A stretch of 32,868 bases of DNA, taken from a virus. The stretch is from positions 1 to 32,868 of the IMG/VR virus record IMGVR_UViG_3300047457_001076; one strand, given 5' to 3'. A program made the position numbers and the translations under genes. The notes below the pieces were generated by a model that saw only the letters and a program-made list of their open reading frames with translations, ran no database searches and was not told the origin of the DNA. Shown in pieces: positions 17,507 to 30,416 of the stretch. Numbering within the stretch: the stretch's first letter is position 1; each line of letters opens with the position of its first letter.

Positions 17507-18718
17507 TTAATCGCCGAACGGCTGGCCGGTGGTGGCGTGGATGGCCTGGTTGCCTGTGAACCGCTGCCAGCGACGCACAGCGACATCGACGTATTGTGGG
17601 GCGAGTTCCATAGCGTAGCAGCGGCGGCCTGTTTGCTCGGCAGCAATGATGGTGGTGCCGGATCCGGAGAAGGGTTCGTAAATGCTGTCACCGGGCAGGC
17701 TGTTATTTTCTATGGGCCGCCTCATGCACTCGACTGGCTTTTGAGTGCCGTGCCCATGACCATGATCCTCTCGCGCCTTAATGTTCCATACCGTTGTCTG
17801 TTTGCGGTCGCCATTCCAATGGCCAGTCGCGCCTTTTTTTACGACGTACCACGCCGGTTCGTGTTGCCAGTGGTAATGGCCTCGGCCTAACCTGAATCTA
17901 TCTTTTGACCATATAATCATTGCGCGGCATTGAAATCCGCATGATTCCAGGGAATCAAGCACTATGCTGGTGAATGTAGATGCATGCCACACATAGGCAA
18001 CATCACCAGGAAAAAGAGACCATGCCTCACGCCAGTCAGCCCGGTCGTCGTTCAGTACTTTTCCTGATTTCAGCGAGTTATTGCTGGCGTGAGTTGGGTC
18101 GTATTCAACCCCATACGGCGGATCAGTAACCATAAGATGCGGTTGCCCCCCCCCTAACAGCTCGGCAACGTTGTCGGCATTAGTGCTATCACCGCACATC
18201 AGCCGATGCCGTCCCAGCAACCACACGTCACCTGGCGCAGTAACGATTTGGGTTTGTGCATCTGGCACATCATCCGGGTCGGTCTGGCCTTCCGGGGTTG
18301 CCTCACTCAGTGCCAGCATTTCGCTGATTTCATCATTATCAAACCCAATCAACTCCAGATCAAAATCCATGGATTGCAGGGTTTTGAGTTCCTGTGCCAG
18401 CAGGTCTTCATCCCATCCGGCCAGTTCTGCCAGTTTGTTATCCGCTAATACGTAAGCCTGGCGTTGAGCGGCAGTGAGTCCGGTCAGGATCAGGCATGGC
18501 ACTTCAGGTAGCGCCAGGTGTTTGGCTGCCATGACCCGGCCATGACCGGCGATTATTTCGCCGGTTTCGTCGATCAGTACCGGATTGGTAAAGCCGAACT
18601 CGCGCATGGATGCCGCAATTTGCTGTACTTGTTGCTCGCTGTGCGTTCTCGCGTTGCGTGCATAAGGGATCAGTGATTCTGTTGGGCGTTTTTGTAGATT
18701 GGTATGTAAAACCGTCAT
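17507..18718 (-). CDS. ParB-domain / DNA methyltransferase fusion
   Basis: A 403-residue protein from the second ATG (18718), which has GGAGG seven bases upstream; an ATG six bases earlier is also possible. Residues ~15-95 form a ParB/Srx-like domain (YARNARTHSEQQVQQIA, REFGFTNPVLID, IIAGHGRVMAAK). Residues ~160-385 are a class-beta amino-methyltransferase: DPPY at 199-202 and the SAM motif FSGSGTT at 350-356, with TQKPVE between them. It should methylate adenine or cytosine exocyclic N in DNA; the site is unknown. ParB-methylase fusions are common in phages next to terminase genes and are thought to protect phage DNA. Start overlaps the nrdB stop. It shares its first domain with the gene at 22257. 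Confidence 0.93.
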   Translation of the reverse strand: MTVLHTNLQKRPTESLIPYARNARTHSEQQVQQIAASMREFGFTNPVLIDETGEIIAGHGRVMAAKHLALPEVPCLILTGLTAAQRQAYVLADNKLAELAGWDEDLLAQELKTLQSMDFDLELIGFDNDEISEMLALSEATPEGQTDPDDVPDAQTQIVTAPGDVWLLGRHRLMCGDSTNADNVAELLGGGQPHLMVTDPPYGVEYDPTHASNNSLKSGKVLNDDRADWREAWSLFPGDVAYVWHASTFTSIVLDSLESCGFQCRAMIIWSKDRFRLGRGHYHWQHEPAWYVVKKGATGHWNGDRKQTTVWNIKAREDHGHGHGTQKPVECMRRPIENNSLPGDSIYEPFSGSGTTIIAAEQTGRRCYAMELAPQYVDVAVRRWQRFTGNQAIHATTGQPFGD

Positions 18719-19710
18719 CCCCATGCCTCCATCAGTTGTTCCATCGGGGTGGGGTCGCCAAAATCGAGCGCGGAGCCGCTTTGGTACTCGGTGATGTGGC
18801 TTTCGAAGAAATTCTTCTCTTTCTTCAGTTCGAGCATCTCCGATAGCCAGGGCAGTGGTTGGGCTGCGTGCAGTGGGAACAGCGGCTGCAATCCAATTTG
18901 CTCCAGCCGCAAGTTGACCAGGTAGCGCGTATGTTCGATGTGCAGTCGGGGGTTGTAGCCCGCCAGTTCGGGGATGGCGTGGGCCGCGTAGTCGCTCTCG
19001 GCCAGCGTCAGGCGGCTGAACATTTGCCGGATCGGTTCGGCTGCGCGGGCGTGGGCGCGGTGTTCGTCCAGCAGCTCTTGTATCAGCCGCAGGCCAAACT
19101 GAAAATGCGTCACTTCATCCCGGGCGATGTACAGCAACTGTTCGGCTGTGCCGGTCATTTTGCCCATCTGGCCCAGGCGCAGAATGGGCGAGAATCCGTG
19201 GTAGAACCAGATACCCTCCCATCCCAGGTAGAAAAATGCCAGGCCGGTGATGCGTTCAATCGGATCATCCGACAGGATTTTTTGCGCGTACTCGTTGCCG
19301 AATTTGAATTTTTGCAGAATGTACGGGCGCTGCTGGTAACGCTGATAAATGCTGGCATCGTCGAGTGCAAGGCACTCGATAATATGTTGGTAACTGTAGC
19401 TGTGCAGCGATTCATCGGCCATTTGGTGGCTCAGAAACAGCCGGATTTCAGGCGGGGTGAGAATATCGTAAATGCGGCTGGCCAGGTTCTCCTGGATCGC
19501 AAGGTCAGCCGTGGTGAGCGTGGCAAACACGTCCAGGAACATTTGTCGCTCTGAGTCAGTGAGGCTGGCAAACTGTGCCACATCCTGGCCCATTTTGATT
19601 TGTTCCGGGTTCCAGAAATTTTTGCGGGCCGTTTTGTACATTTCAAACGACCAGGGGTAACGCAGCGGTGACAAGTTGTAGGGTTCATCAGTTTTGAACA
19701 GGGTTTTCAT
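18715..19710 (-). CDS. nrdB: Class I ribonucleotide reductase small subunit
   Basis: A 331-residue protein of the R2 family, which makes the radical needed to reduce ribonucleotides to deoxyribonucleotides. All six metal ligands line up with E. coli NrdB: Asp69, Glu100, His103, Glu165, Glu199 and His202 (ESLH, WEGIWF and DEVTH motifs). The radical tyrosine is Tyr107, four residues after His103, as Tyr122 in E. coli. It therefore looks catalytically complete. No large subunit (nrdA) gene is in the window, so it would have to pair with a host or distant phage subunit. The start at 19710 lies inside the end of the preceding small gene, with only a weak ribosome site. Confidence 0.95.
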   Translation of the reverse strand: MKTLFKTDEPYNLSPLRYPWSFEMYKTARKNFWNPEQIKMGQDVAQFASLTDSERQMFLDVFATLTTADLAIQENLASRIYDILTPPEIRLFLSHQMADESLHSYSYQHIIECLALDDASIYQRYQQRPYILQKFKFGNEYAQKILSDDPIERITGLAFFYLGWEGIWFYHGFSPILRLGQMGKMTGTAEQLLYIARDEVTHFQFGLRLIQELLDEHRAHARAAEPIRQMFSRLTLAESDYAAHAIPELAGYNPRLHIEHTRYLVNLRLEQIGLQPLFPLHAAQPLPWLSEMLELKKEKNFFESHITEYQSGSALDFGDPTPMEQLMEAWG

Positions 19711-22107: not shown

Positions 22108-22290
22108 TTACCAGTCTAGTAGTTCCTTGGTTGTTTTTTTTAGTGCTATTCCGGTCAGGTTTCGTCGATTGCTGAAAAATTTTTTGTTTTTTTCCAGATT
22201 TTCACGACGGATGGCGGCTGCGCTTTTGCTGGGGGTGCGGTAACCGTTTTTTGTTTTTACGGTGCCTCGGCTTTCTGAACCAGTTGCCAT
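22108..22290 (-). CDS. Small basic protein upstream of the large terminase
   Basis: A 60-residue, Lys/Arg-rich protein from the ATG at 22290, chosen for GAGGAG nine bases upstream; an earlier in-frame start at 22353 lies well inside the ParB-PLD gene. No hydrophobic segment. It contains SKSAAAIRRENLEKNKKFF and a short C-terminal helix. Not recognised. Tight packing, 34-base overlap with the upstream gene and a 4-base gap to the large terminase suggest it is translated with them; it may be a DNA-binding packaging helper. Confidence 0.65.
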   Translation of the reverse strand: MATGSESRGTVKTKNGYRTPSKSAAAIRRENLEKNKKFFSNRRNLTGIALKKTTKELLDW

Positions 22291-23360
22291 AATTGATTTC
22301 TCCTCAAAAGTTTGTGGCTGGCTTGATAGGTGTTCAGGATGTTTGCCATCCATTTACGATGAAATGCGTATTGGATGGGGCAGTTATCGAGCGTGATTTG
22401 CTCGATATTCATGGAGGATCGCAGGTTTGCGCTGCCTCCGATGACCAGGTTCATGCCGCAGGTGGTGCGGATGAGGGTGATTTTTGTGTGAATTCCGGCG
22501 ACAGCCAGCGTGAATGGGCCATCGCCCAGATGTTTAACGATGTCCTCAATTCCGTCTTTGCGTTCGTGCGCGAAAAAATAATCGCTGATGATTAGGCCGA
22601 TTCTGCCTGTTTCTGACAATTTGTATTCCTGGACGGTTTTCAGGCTATCTACGTTTTGACTGGACATTGAGAGGGTGCTGATTATGATTTCGTCTGCAAT
22701 CAGGTCGTTCTCAAAAAGGTAGGCCTCAATAAAATCGCCTGCAATAAAATCACCGGAAACAATCGCGTTGACATGTTCTCCGGTTTGGAGTTTTCCGATT
22801 TTTTGAGCCAGGTCTTGCGCCAGTTCGTATTTGACTGCTTTTGGTCGTTGGTAACGAGTGATTTTTACAAAATCATGCGTTGCTTCGGGTTGTTGTTTTT
22901 CTTCTTCCGTCAGATAGGCATCGGCAGGTATTATTTCCTCGTTTCCGGTATTGACGTTTTCAATGATTTCGTGGCTCGATTTATCTGTTAATTCGGCCGC
23001 AAATAATTCATCCATGTCAAATCCTGGCAAATCGATGTAGTTCAACTCTTCTGCCAGCAGGGTTTCATTCCAGCCCGAATTGAGTGCTATCTGATTGTCG
23101 GCAATGACGTATGCCCGTTTTTGCTGTTGGGTCAGGTGCGTGAGCCGAACGCATGGTATTGATTCAAGGCCCATACGTTTGGCTGCCATGACCCGTCCGT
23201 GACCTGCAATGATTTCGTTTTTTTCGTCAATCAGTACCGGGTTTGTAAATCCAAATTCGCGGATACTGGCAATTATTTGTGAGATTTGGGTATCGCTGTG
23301 AGTTCGGCTGTTTCGAGCGTACGGGATTAGTTGATCGGTGGGGAGGCTGTTTAATATCAT
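22257..23360 (-). CDS. ParB-domain / PLD-like (HxK) fusion protein
   Basis: A 367-residue protein. Residues 1-95 form a ParB/Srx-like domain very close to that of the gene at 17507 (YARNSRTHSDTQISQI, REFGFTNPVLID, IIAGHGRVMAAKR). The C-terminal ~170 residues look like a phospholipase-D-type domain with one motif: HTKITLI followed by LVIGGSANLRSS, where H-x-K and G-S-x-N are the family marks; the usual Asp is not seen in place. The middle part (KITRYQRPKAVKYELAQDLA) is unknown. It may be a nuclease or nuclease-like DNA-binding protein. Coupled to lysozyme by ATGA (23357-23360). It sits between terminase genes and its base composition is more AT-rich than its neighbours, suggesting transfer. 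Confidence 0.8.
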   Translation of the reverse strand: MILNSLPTDQLIPYARNSRTHSDTQISQIIASIREFGFTNPVLIDEKNEIIAGHGRVMAAKRMGLESIPCVRLTHLTQQQKRAYVIADNQIALNSGWNETLLAEELNYIDLPGFDMDELFAAELTDKSSHEIIENVNTGNEEIIPADAYLTEEEKQQPEATHDFVKITRYQRPKAVKYELAQDLAQKIGKLQTGEHVNAIVSGDFIAGDFIEAYLFENDLIADEIIISTLSMSSQNVDSLKTVQEYKLSETGRIGLIISDYFFAHERKDGIEDIVKHLGDGPFTLAVAGIHTKITLIRTTCGMNLVIGGSANLRSSMNIEQITLDNCPIQYAFHRKWMANILNTYQASHKLLRRNQLWQLVQKAEAP

Positions 23361-23884
23361 GGGAACTGGCCCTGCAAAAACAGTTTTTTCTCCGCAAGGC
23401 GGCGTCGGGTCAGGCCGGTGAGGACGCGGCCAGAGGCCTTATTCCAGCGTTCGAACTGGTTGGCCGCCTCGTCGATTTTGGAGACGTTCAGCAGTTTCAG
23501 CAGGGTGGAACCGGCAAACGCTCCGCGCCCGACGTTGTAGCAAAACGATACCAGGGCACCGTGCTGGCAACTGGCCAGGTTGGCCCGGACCTTATGGCTG
23601 ACGAAATCAGCGAACTCCTCCAGATCGTCCGCCAGCATCAAATCCGCCTCGGATTCGGTGAGGGCGGGGTATTGGGCCAGTGCGGCAGCGTGATCGTCCT
23701 CGCCCATCAGGAACGCCCCGGTGTCGGGGTCGCGCAGGGTTCTGCCCCAGCCGACCGTCCATATTCCTGCCGGGCAGAGTTTCGGCTGTAGGCCGATGAC
23801 GGTTTCGTCGCCGTCGTGCAGGGATTCAAAGTGCTGGATCAATGCAATGGCCCGTTCGTCGATGGGCCAGGTGGTGGTAGTCAT
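23357..23884 (-). CDS. Endolysin, GH24 (T4-type) lysozyme
   Basis: A 175-residue phage lysozyme that cleaves the glycan of peptidoglycan at host lysis. The catalytic Glu20 is in IQHFESLH; the CPAGIWTVGWGRT motif follows at residues 37-49, the GH24 core, with the subfamily form in which the Asp is replaced by Cys. A later GALVSFCYNVGRGAF is the conserved second lobe motif. There is no signal peptide or SAR helix, so it needs a holin; the small membrane protein at 8726 is one candidate, but it is far away. An insertion of about ten residues follows Glu20. Start and stop overlap neighbours by four bases. Confidence 0.93.
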   Translation of the reverse strand: MTTTTWPIDERAIALIQHFESLHDGDETVIGLQPKLCPAGIWTVGWGRTLRDPDTGAFLMGEDDHAAALAQYPALTESEADLMLADDLEEFADFVSHKVRANLASCQHGALVSFCYNVGRGAFAGSTLLKLLNVSKIDEAANQFERWNKASGRVLTGLTRRRLAEKKLFLQGQFP

Positions 23885-24483
23885 GGTGTCTCCGGGGGAG
23901 TGTGTGCGAGTTTTTGGAACTGGCGGGAGAGTTCCGCCAGCGTGAGTTCGACGTGATCCAGCAATGCGGTGCGGCAGCGCTGTTCGTCGGTTTCTGCCGC
24001 CAGTTGCGGCGAGAGGATGTCCGGCATCGCCTCCAGCCGTGCCCGGACAATGGTGGCAGCGGTGGCGACAATGCGGGCAACGTCGGCGGCACGGAGTAAT
24101 TCGCCCGTGCTGATTTCGTAGTCCCGTTTAGCCGCCATGGCGTTGTATTTTTCGCGCAACGCCTTGCTGGCCTGGTACAGGGATCCCGCCTTGTCCGTTT
24201 TGAGTTCCTGGGTGATGTCCCCGGTGGGGGGCGGTGGCTGCGGGGCGGGTTGTTGTGCAGCGGCACGGTTTGCCGCGTGACGGTCAACCGTGCCCTGGCG
24301 GGACGGGTCTCGGGTTGCGTTGATGAGTTCTACGCTCTCCGCGACACGCACTCGCTGACCGTCGTCTGTCAGCACCACCCGGCCCGCCGTGATGAGCTGG
24401 GTGACGTAACCCCGTTTCACGTTGAGATACGCGGCAAATTCGGATTTTGACAGCGTACCGTCAGCGGCAACGATGATTTTCAT
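23881..24483 (-). CDS. Terminase small subunit (Nu1-like)
   Basis: A 200-residue protein. The first 60 residues are a winged-helix/HTH domain: LSKSEFAAYLNVKRGYVTQL, then GRVVLTDDGQRVRVAESVEL, as in lambda Nu1. A Pro-rich linker (QQPAPQPPPP) leads to a helical C-terminal half that would assemble the ring and contact the large subunit. It recognises the packaging site. Unlike in lambda it is separated from the large subunit by lysozyme, the ParB-PLD gene and a small gene. The start ATG at 24483 lies next to the iteron field, so the packaging site may be close to the origin. Confidence 0.85.
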   Translation of the reverse strand: MKIIVAADGTLSKSEFAAYLNVKRGYVTQLITAGRVVLTDDGQRVRVAESVELINATRDPSRQGTVDRHAANRAAAQQPAPQPPPPTGDITQELKTDKAGSLYQASKALREKYNAMAAKRDYEISTGELLRAADVARIVATAATIVRARLEAMPDILSPQLAAETDEQRCRTALLDHVELTLAELSRQFQKLAHTPPETP

Positions 24484-24951
24484 GGTTTTATGGCCCTCAG
24501 AGCGTCGTGGTGGCGTTTTTCGTCATGGGTTGCGCCATGACTAGCGGGTTGCTGTTTTTTTCTGCCAGGGAGGGAGAGATGGATTCTTCCTCCTTTTTTC
24601 TTTCCCCACACGTTGAGAAATGTGATGTGTTTGGGGGATTTTGGGTTTGTGCAGGGTGCTGCGCGATTTGTGCAGGGTGGTGTGCAGGGTCAAATGTGCC
24701 GTGAACCCGCTAAAAATGCGGGGTGTGCAGGGTGTGCAGGGTGTGCAGGGTGTATACGTGTGCGTGAATGCGTTTGTGGTGTGGTGGGCGGAGTGTGTGC
24801 CTGCGTTTCCCGCGTACGTGTGCGTGAGACCCTGCACACCCTGCACAAGCGGCATTCTGACTGGGTTTTGACCCTGCACAGCACCCTGCACAGCACCCTG
24901 CACACCCTGCACAATCAGTTGATTTTGCATAAAATAAGCACCTTTTGTGGT
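24484..24951. repeat. Iteron field, probable replication origin (6 + 6 inverted 9-bp repeats)
   Basis: Between small terminase and primase-helicase there is no real gene. GTGCAGGGT occurs six times on the plus strand (24649, 24670, 24682, 24725, 24734, 24743) and its reverse complement ACCCTGCAC six times (24829, 24838, 24871, 24883, 24895, 24904). A centre of ~77 bp separates the two groups and contains a direct repeat TACGTGTGCGTGA (24755-24767 and 24815-24827). The arrangement matches iteron-type origins next to P4-like primase-helicase genes. A hairpin GTCATGG/CCATGAC lies at 24522-24541. Confidence 0.8.
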
Positions 24952-27354
24952 TTAGCCGCCTTGATTCAGCCCGGCTTTGTAGTCCGAGACTGCGGCTCGG
25001 AACGCTGCGACGCACTCGCCCAGCCAGACTGATTCGGATTGTGCGCCTGGGGCGGCACTATGGGCCGGTACCAGGAACGTCTGCGGGTTTTTGGAGGGAG
25101 CCAGTCCGATCAAATAGCGTTTTCGCTCCTTGCTGCCAAATCCGCTTTTGGTTATTTTGTCGATTACTTTGTTGATCGGTGCCGCCTTGAACCCCGCCCG
25201 CTGGCAGAATGTCCGATAAACGTCGTAAATGTCCTCGGTCAGTGCAGGCACCACGGGTAAGCCGAGCGAACCGTCTGCCCACTCGATCCTGAACCGGTCA
25301 ATCGAATCGCGGGATAAATCAATCAACTCCCGCTTTGCCTCCGTCATGGGGGGTTTTGCGTGTTCATCAAAATCCCCCATCTCGACCTGGAGCAAATAGT
25401 GATGCAGGGCGGCCCGGCCACCATTTTTTAGCTCTGCTACTACCTCATCGTAAAACGATTTTTTGAGTTTTGCGGGTGTCCAGACAATCGCGTGACGCCG
25501 GTCGTCTTCTTCCAGCACAGTAGGCATCCTTTCGTTACTCAGAAAAACCATATTGGCGTGGTTTTTCTCGTCGTATGCAGCGGCACCCTTGGGGTTAATG
25601 CGTATCCAGTCGCCGGTGACGAACGATTTCAGCTTGTTTTTTACATGAAACAATTCCTGCCGGGCCACCGTTTCGTCAGCGATCAAAAACAATTTCGCTG
25701 ATGCCCAGTCGTTGAATTTGTCCTCCAGGCTATTCTGGTCGATAACCCGCCCATACCTGCCGTATATCGCCATCACGGTCTCAAAAAACAGGTTTTTGCC
25801 AGTGCCCTGTGGGCCGTGGACGACAATGGTCGTTTTCATTTTCGCCCCAGGGTTTTGAAGCGGGTATGCCAGCCATCTCACTATAAAATTGTACAGGGGC
25901 AGCGGATCCGATTCCCCCTCGCACATGTACATCAGCAAATCCAGCAACCTGGAGCAATCGCCCTCGGCAGGCTGAGTGGGCCATCCTGCCCACAGATTGC
26001 AACTGATCTCCGGGTCAGTGCCCGCCGGGTCAAACCCGACGCTCTCCAGCCGGACAATCCGGCGATCGGGCGATGCCTGCCATTCCCTGCCCAGTTCGCG
26101 GAACCGGCAGGCGTCCCTCATGCTGCCGAGCTTCATCAGCCGATGTTCCACGTGATCGAACACCATGCCGTCGCTGGCGTATACCAGGCTGAACCGGTCG
26201 AGGAGTTCATCGACTGTAGTGAATGGCTTTATCTCACCCCGCCCCCCCGACGGAGGTTCGCCCGCGCTGGCGGCAGGTTCGGCGTTCCATTGCAGTTGTT
26301 GCAGCGCGGCATCGATCTGATTCCTGACCAGGGATAGTCCCTCGATGCAGTGCAGGTCGTTGAAATCGGTAATTTTTGTGCCGGTGGCCTTGTATGCGTC
26401 AAACCGGGCCGCGTTATCACTAAACCGGGGAGCGACCCATGCGCCCTGCACCAGCAACGCCGATGAGCTGGCTGCCTCGATGCCGGCATTGCGGCAGCCA
26501 TGCGGCTGGCCGCAGTGGCCGCAGGTTGCGCCGGCACTTTTCACGATGGGCTCTTTGCAGTGGCCGCACTGGCCAAAATCATCATCGTCGGCGCAAATCA
26601 GCCACCGGGTGCGTTTGTGTTGTTTCCGCAGTTCCCGCAGGTTCGGCTGAATCTGACTGTCGGAAAACGCGACCAGGACAGGCAGGCCGGTGGCGGCTCG
26701 CAGTGATGCCCCGGTGGCGTATCCCTCGGTGACCAGGCAGATCGGGCCGGGGGTGCCGATCCAGTGATGACCGCACTTGACTGCCGCGCCCTTTGGCCAG
26801 TACCGCTTATCCTTCCCCCCGTTTTTTTTGATTTCGTCCTGGCTATGTTCGCGCGAAAAAATCAGTTGCACGGCTGTCAGTCTGCAATCCGGCTGGTGTA
26901 TCGGCACGACCAGATCGCCTCGATCCGTGTAGCGCACGCCGTAGCCCTGGATTTTTTTTCGCTCCAGGTAATCGCTGCGTCCGTCCGAGGACAGTGAATC
27001 CCAGAATGCCCGTGCCTCCGCTGCCGCTGCCGTTTCTCGGGCTCTCTCCCGTCGCTCGAACTCACGCTGGTCTGCCGCCATGCGCTCGCGTATAGCGGCA
27101 CGCTGCTCTGCACTCATATCCGTGGGCAGCCCGCCAATTTTCTGGTAGCCGTTGTCCGAATTGCCGTCCCATATCCCGTAACCCCCGACAATCCAATCGT
27201 CGCCATTGTTTGAGATCAGGTGTAACCGATACCACCCCTGTTTATGCGGCCTCCCTTTGACTCTGGTTTTGACCTCGCGCCCACTGACCTCCAGTCGGGT
27301 CACGTCCAGGCCGTGGGCCTGGAGTTCTGCCAAAACGTCGCTGTAATTTTTCAT
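24952..27354 (-). CDS. Phage primase-helicase (Toprim plus SF3/DUF5906)
   Basis: An 800-residue replication protein of the P4-alpha kind. Residues ~120-300 are the primase part: a DNA-primase core with VTEGYATGASL (Toprim Glu210) and the acidic LICADDDDFG (252-261). Inside the latter domain sits a small zinc ribbon (CGHC at 263-266, CGHC at 278-281). Residues ~375-690 are the SF3 helicase: Walker A GPQGTGKN (514-521), Walker B LFLIADE (555-561), and the sensor region NMVFLSNE. The C-terminal ~100 residues form a winged-helix-like tail. It would recognise the iterons beside its 3' end, unwind and prime. ATG at 27354 has GAGAG upstream. It is the main replication gene visible. Confidence 0.93.
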   Translation of the reverse strand: MKNYSDVLAELQAHGLDVTRLEVSGREVKTRVKGRPHKQGWYRLHLISNNGDDWIVGGYGIWDGNSDNGYQKIGGLPTDMSAEQRAAIRERMAADQREFERRERARETAAAAEARAFWDSLSSDGRSDYLERKKIQGYGVRYTDRGDLVVPIHQPDCRLTAVQLIFSREHSQDEIKKNGGKDKRYWPKGAAVKCGHHWIGTPGPICLVTEGYATGASLRAATGLPVLVAFSDSQIQPNLRELRKQHKRTRWLICADDDDFGQCGHCKEPIVKSAGATCGHCGQPHGCRNAGIEAASSSALLVQGAWVAPRFSDNAARFDAYKATGTKITDFNDLHCIEGLSLVRNQIDAALQQLQWNAEPAASAGEPPSGGRGEIKPFTTVDELLDRFSLVYASDGMVFDHVEHRLMKLGSMRDACRFRELGREWQASPDRRIVRLESVGFDPAGTDPEISCNLWAGWPTQPAEGDCSRLLDLLMYMCEGESDPLPLYNFIVRWLAYPLQNPGAKMKTTIVVHGPQGTGKNLFFETVMAIYGRYGRVIDQNSLEDKFNDWASAKLFLIADETVARQELFHVKNKLKSFVTGDWIRINPKGAAAYDEKNHANMVFLSNERMPTVLEEDDRRHAIVWTPAKLKKSFYDEVVAELKNGGRAALHHYLLQVEMGDFDEHAKPPMTEAKRELIDLSRDSIDRFRIEWADGSLGLPVVPALTEDIYDVYRTFCQRAGFKAAPINKVIDKITKSGFGSKERKRYLIGLAPSKNPQTFLVPAHSAAPGAQSESVWLGECVAAFRAAVSDYKAGLNQGG

Positions 27355-29953: not shown

Positions 29954-30400
29954 ATGAATACAGAATTGATGTTTTCGAGCGCAAATGATGTTTGGGCTAC
30001 CCCGCAATGGTTGTTCGATGCGCTCAACAAAGAATTTGGATTTACCCTTGATCCGTGCAGCGACGGCACGAACGCCAAAACGGAAAAGTTCTTCTCGATC
30101 TACGATAGCGGGCTGCTGAAAGACTGGGGCACAGAAACAGTATTTATGAATCCGCCCTACAGCGAGTGCAAAAAATGGATGCAAAAGGCTTATGGAGCAG
30201 CGCAAGAAGGCGCGACAGTTGTTTGCCTTGTCCCTGCCAGAACCGACACCGAATGGTGGCACCGCTTCGCCATGAAAGGTGAAATCAGGTTGTTGCGGGG
30301 GCGGCTGAAATTTGGAGATGCCAAGAGTGCCGCACCGTTCCCGAGTGCCATCATTGTTTTCCGGCCCCGCGAATTCAAGATGGTGGCGTGCGACTTCTAA
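29954..30400 (+). CDS. Phage DNA N6-adenine methyltransferase (Dam family)
   Basis: A 148-residue protein. The phage Dam-type pattern is complete: FSSANDVWATPQWLFDALN, LDPCSD, GLLKDWG, and the catalytic FMNPPYSECKKW (N-PPY), followed by VVCLVPARTDTEWWH. It methylates adenine, probably to hide phage DNA from restriction. The start is uncertain: ATG at 29954 and 29969 are both reasonable and neither has a clear Shine-Dalgarno; a TTG at 29906 inside the terminator T run is unlikely. Confidence 0.92.
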   Translation: MNTELMFSSANDVWATPQWLFDALNKEFGFTLDPCSDGTNAKTEKFFSIYDSGLLKDWGTETVFMNPPYSECKKWMQKAYGAAQEGATVVCLVPARTDTEWWHRFAMKGEIRLLRGRLKFGDAKSAAPFPSAIIVFRPREFKMVACDF

Positions 30401-30416
30401 CAATGTTGAGGCTGAC

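Follow-up and report, generated by a model that had tools for sequence, protein, structure and literature searches.

Why should a phage carry twelve copies of one 9-bp word, six on each strand, directly past the end of its primase-helicase gene? The question is raised by an IMG/VR virus record of 32,868 nucleotides, which was analysed over its full length (hereafter the window), and in which an exact-match scan finds GTGCAGGGT twelve times at 24649-24912 (six per strand) and a single further time in the 32.9 kb, at 10444. Allowing up to one mismatch raises the count to 25, a number that none of 100 dinucleotide shuffles reaches (9.15 ± 2.85 matches). A preliminary description of this DNA had taken the array for a probable replication origin, and that reading holds up well. 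We consider it very likely, on computational support, that the array is a phage replication origin with the adjacent primase-helicase as its initiator, because (i) the array follows the primase-helicase gene through most of the family, (ii) its word co-varies with the winged-helix domain of that protein and (iii) one arm in eight relatives repeats the annotated layout of the P4 ori. A literature search found no paper on this array (searching for the word returned primers only), and a nucleotide search with 24500-25000 against phage records gave no match.

The array consists of two opposed six-site arms around a centre, and starts 39 bp past the primase-helicase stop (24952). Arm 1, the primase-proximal one (24829-24912, minus strand), is organised as 4+2, with sites at 24904-24912, 24895-24903, 24883-24891 and 24871-24879, then a gap, then 24838-24846 and 24829-24837. 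Arm 2, on the terminase side (24649-24751, plus strand), is organised as 3+3, with three tandem sites at 24743-24751, 24734-24742 and 24725-24733, then a gap, then 24682-24690, 24670-24678 and 24649-24657. Along the primase strand the sites start at 0, 9, 21, 33, 66 and 75 in arm 1, and at 0, 9, 18, 61, 73 and 94 in arm 2. The 'perfect 6+6 inverted symmetry' that had been claimed is thus correct for the number of sites but not for their spacing. Between the arms lies a 77-bp centre (24752-24828) that is G+T-rich on the plus strand and holds two direct copies of the 13-bp TACGTGTGCGTGA (24755-24767 and 24815-24827, plus strand). These elements (six and six opposed copies, tandem 9-mers, centre and direct repeat) are as first described, as are the neighbouring genes. 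With about 35-50% AT per 20-bp bin, the centre does not have the AT-rich character of a central melting region. AT content is 65-70% in the 40 bp that precede the first site, and the AT-rich stretch between the array and the primase stop (24913-24945, containing TGATTTTGCATAAAATAAG), which is kept in the two nearest relatives, is a candidate unwinding region. GC skew, which had been proposed as a check, does not turn at the array and is uninformative as an origin signal in this window.

On the minus strand, the gene order is primase-helicase (24952-27354), array, small terminase subunit TerS (phrog_57, 23881-24483, a neighbour that is not counted in the origin), endolysin, a ParB-like gene and a gpA-type TerL, beyond which come more genes, among them those for portal, head protease, decoration and minor tail proteins. 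Since it encodes its own virion proteins, the window is no satellite. A nucleotide-metabolism set also sits amid the structural genes, consisting of a ribonucleotide reductase small subunit (18715-19710, minus strand), a ParB-like/DNA methyltransferase fusion (17507-18724, minus strand; another ParB-like gene lies at 22257-23360) and a protein of the thymidylate synthase family (30312-31040, plus strand).

The primase-helicase is a protein of 800 aa whose AlphaFold model (mean pLDDT 84) combines a Toprim primase, an SF3 hexameric-helicase domain (DUF5906) and a C-terminal winged helix, that is, the three parts of a P4-type initiator, as judged from the model and its structure matches. The primase part matches T7 gp4 and DnaG (Z 13-14), and the nearest structures to the helicase part are hexameric NrS-1 (Z 24.8, with a profile match to the protein at E 5.5e-23) and the SaPI5 primase-helicase (Z 16.3). 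The C-terminal domain, when folded alone, gives mostly winged-helix matches, with RFX among the first, at a modest Z of 5-6; its predicted coding part (residues ~684-765) lies at 25060-25305 on the minus strand. The profile of P4 alpha matches the protein with a probability of 98.6 over the primase half only; a profile comparison of the winged helix with P4 alpha gave no significant match, and the P4 ori-binding domain 1ka8 is absent among the structure matches listed for the model and for the C-terminal domain.

Is the array a peculiarity of one phage? Relatives of the primase-helicase (80 from a scan of viral contigs and 80 from a scan of bacterial genomes, 30-99% identical) were collected, and word finding was run locus by locus on the 157 that had enough flanking sequence. 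With an array defined by a word score of at least 8 (a cut-off that we chose; shuffled sequence peaks at about 5.5), a two-arm array lies beside the 3' end of the primase-helicase gene in about 135 of these 157, mostly with the same spacing; 22 score below the threshold, and in several distant relatives an array was looked for and none was seen. From primase stop to first site the median distance is 16 bp (5-95% range 1-43 bp). The left arm most often starts its sites at 0, 9, 21, 33, 65 and 74 (or 0, 9, 18, 30, 74 and 83) and the right arm, on the opposite strand after about 76 bp, at 0, 9, 18, 61, 73 and 82, so that the 4+2/3+3 asymmetry of the window is the common pattern among its relatives. 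Their centres are not AT-rich either, and AT-rich stretches flank the array instead. The hosts include Xanthomonas, Stenotrophomonas, Comamonas, methanotrophs and Zetaproteobacteria.

The number of sites was assessed by looking at fixed slots: of 140 arrays, 94 have a complete left set of six and 69 a complete right set of six, and the opposite-strand control mostly fills 0-2 slots. Automatic motif runs had also returned extra weak sites in the G+T-rich centre, which this controlled slot test superseded. A (6,6) count is the commonest class (41 loci). Five Stenotrophomonas-type loci (L051, L063, L065, L070 and L073) show one more site on the same strand, a degenerate seventh copy about 103-109 bp beyond the left arm's first site, which weakens a strict 'always six' reading. 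In L011 and L017 some 0.55 kb separate the primase stop from the displaced array, which in L017 spans about 558-830 bp after the stop and has ATATACCG as its word. TerS relatives lacking the primase, sought as a negative control, turned up in too small a number to serve as one; L286 has the array at a contig end, 1.1 kb from TerS. The word itself varies by lineage (TGTGCAGG, TGTGCGGG, GTGAAGGG, GCGCACGG and GGTTACGC, among others) and is uniform inside each array, and the sites of an array therefore change in concert.

The word apparently varies in step with the part of the primase-helicase that is proposed to read it. In 72 non-redundant loci whose words were put in register (the register being our decision), the winged-helix columns 684-770, which had been picked from the predicted structure beforehand, are by mutual information more informative about iteron base 6 than the remaining primase columns (P=9e-9) and also than those of TerS (P=1e-5; 70 of the loci have a TerS sequence). 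Shared ancestry inflates mutual information, and the rest of the protein and TerS serve as controls for it. The top-scoring columns, 756 and 759, are both in the predicted wing. Of the 43 loci where base 6 is G, 42 have Gly as residue 756, and all six where it is C have Asn; residue 759 is Arg in five of the six loci with C, mostly Thr with A, and Gly, Ala or Ser with G. Arg 759 in the loci with C would fit the familiar contact of arginine with guanine, here on the opposite strand.

On a tree built with the winged-helix domain left out, base 6 needs 10 changes; when it is scored as G or not G, residue 756 tracks it in 4.4 of 5 independent pairs and never runs counter to it. Switches within clades can be seen in L048 (C, NQVR) versus its sisters L019 and L259 (G, GPHG), and in L052 (C, NPAR) versus L055 (A, NPKT); residue 732 tracks base 6 too, with just one change on the tree. 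Since there are only about five well-supported independent switches, the tree-based test is not significant alone (p=0.06), and the co-switching of residue 756 and base 6 is suggestive. The fuller claim that wing residues ~756-759 amount to a simple amino-acid-to-base code, by which twelve iterons switch together with the protein, we regard as doubtful.

Which known origins does the array resemble? In the annotated P4 ori, six type-1 iterons stand at 0+, 10+, 21+, 42-, 86+ and 96+, and the left arms of eight relatives match it at six of six sites within 3 bp, orientation and the inverted fourth site included (for example 0+, 9+, 18+, 42-, 86+ and 95+ in L008), when a mirrored control gives none. 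Alpha, the P4 initiator, likewise unites a Toprim primase, an SF3-type helicase and a C-terminal winged helix in one protein, and crr is directly 3' of alpha as the window's array is directly 3' of its primase-helicase gene. However, ori and crr are two sites about 4.7 kb apart in P4, whereas the window has a single contiguous array of two opposed arms, which contain no inverted site and do not reproduce the spacing and orientation of the P4 iterons. P4 is also a satellite, whereas genes for head, portal and tail proteins are present in the window itself.

Origins of phage-inducible chromosomal islands (PICIs) are immediately 3' of the initiator gene and have two iteron sets around an AT-rich centre. 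The paper that describes them states that no other bacterial replicon was known to have this layout, and E. coli supports replication of a pri-rep-ori fragment (PMC6092414). The window shares with them an array immediately 3' of the primase/initiator gene (39 bp, versus a median of 16 bp in relatives) and two iteron sets that flank a central region, and with SaPIs an SF3 helicase of SaPI5 type, but its centre is G+C-rich and the phages in question carry virion genes of their own (terminase, portal, head protease, decoration and tail). NrS-1 offers the closest solved helicase fold, but has an archaeo-eukaryotic PrimPol in place of Toprim, and its genome has only two 8-nt recognition sites and no array (PMC7102993). 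The plasmid pRN1 has a required origin element directly 3' of its primase-helicase gene (PMC4234260), which differs in being a stem-loop without iterons.

The array could in principle be an operator or control element (for autoregulation, copy control or a late-transcription switch), bound by the primase-helicase or by another regulator, with replication starting elsewhere. Its position between an early replication gene and the late genes would suit such a switch, and iterons of plasmid origins often double as copy control. We nevertheless find this very unlikely as the whole explanation, since an origin accounts better for twelve sites in a rigid two-arm spacing 3' of a gene, for a word that co-varies with an initiator-type protein and for the agreement with P4 ori geometry; the array may have a control role in addition.

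A second alternative, which the preliminary description had itself named by pointing to terminase as a possible binder, is that the array is a packaging site (pac or cos) bound by the small terminase subunit of the adjacent gene. Other phages are known to have repeats next to the TerS gene to which TerS binds, the gene that comes next in the window and in many relatives is that of TerS, and most arrays have a small terminase homologue linked to them. Yet in 46 of 128 loci over 700 bp, and up to 3.4 kb, lie between the primase stop and the start of TerS, with the array still next to the primase; the word shows less co-variation with TerS columns than with the primase winged helix; and a better candidate for packaging is found on the other side of the primase gene. 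There, about 87 bp upstream, a GGGTCCY...GGGTAAT block is conserved in 89 of 137 relatives (65%; about 3% by chance), and 17 contigs, including the record of phage S1, begin 35-158 bp upstream of the primase. This conserved block and the contig starts near it point to a cos site upstream of the primase, and the block is probably the cos site of this phage group. In full it reads GGGTCCYYCC...GCGGGTAATNCG...GTAGNTAG, for example in L014, L019, L026, L033 and L063; a search near the window's own primase did not find it. With TerS as much as 3.4 kb away and a cos-like block upstream of the primase, a packaging function for the array is highly improbable.

That the repeats are coding sequence, as in-frame VQG repeats of the 129-codon ORF that spans the array (24541-24930, minus strand), is extremely improbable even though the corresponding region (2454-2804) of Stenotrophomonas phage S1 (NC_011589, our L068) is annotated as hypothetical gp2, since the ORF has no family match, the spacings of 32 bp and 43-44 bp that many relatives have are not divisible by three, DNA binding accounts for the inverted arms and the word switching, and GC-rich repeats with few stops are expected to leave frames open, so that neither this ORF nor gp2 is probably a gene.

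How could an origin of this kind work? The primase-helicase encoded just upstream would act as initiator, with its C-terminal winged helix binding the 9-bp iterons, six in each opposed arm. The bound arms would then place two SF3 helicase assemblies facing in opposite directions, the duplex would open at or beside the array, the helicases would unwind outwards both ways, and the fused Toprim primase would prime synthesis in both directions. It is tempting to let six sites serve six helicase subunits, which stays a speculation because the count is usually, not always, six and because the arms are spaced differently.

Several implications follow for the biology of these phages and their relatives. 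First, a two-set iteron layout that was held to be restricted to PICIs (PMC6092414) is found here in phages with their own structural genes, and one arm having the P4 origin layout in some phages suggests a link between the origins of P4, PICIs and phages. Second, the 6+6 layout recurs in more than 100 related phages despite a changing word. Third, the word and a small protein domain have switched jointly on several occasions, which makes the family a natural data set on the joint change of an initiator and its dozen sites, a question that can be approached with an 80-residue domain and short DNA.
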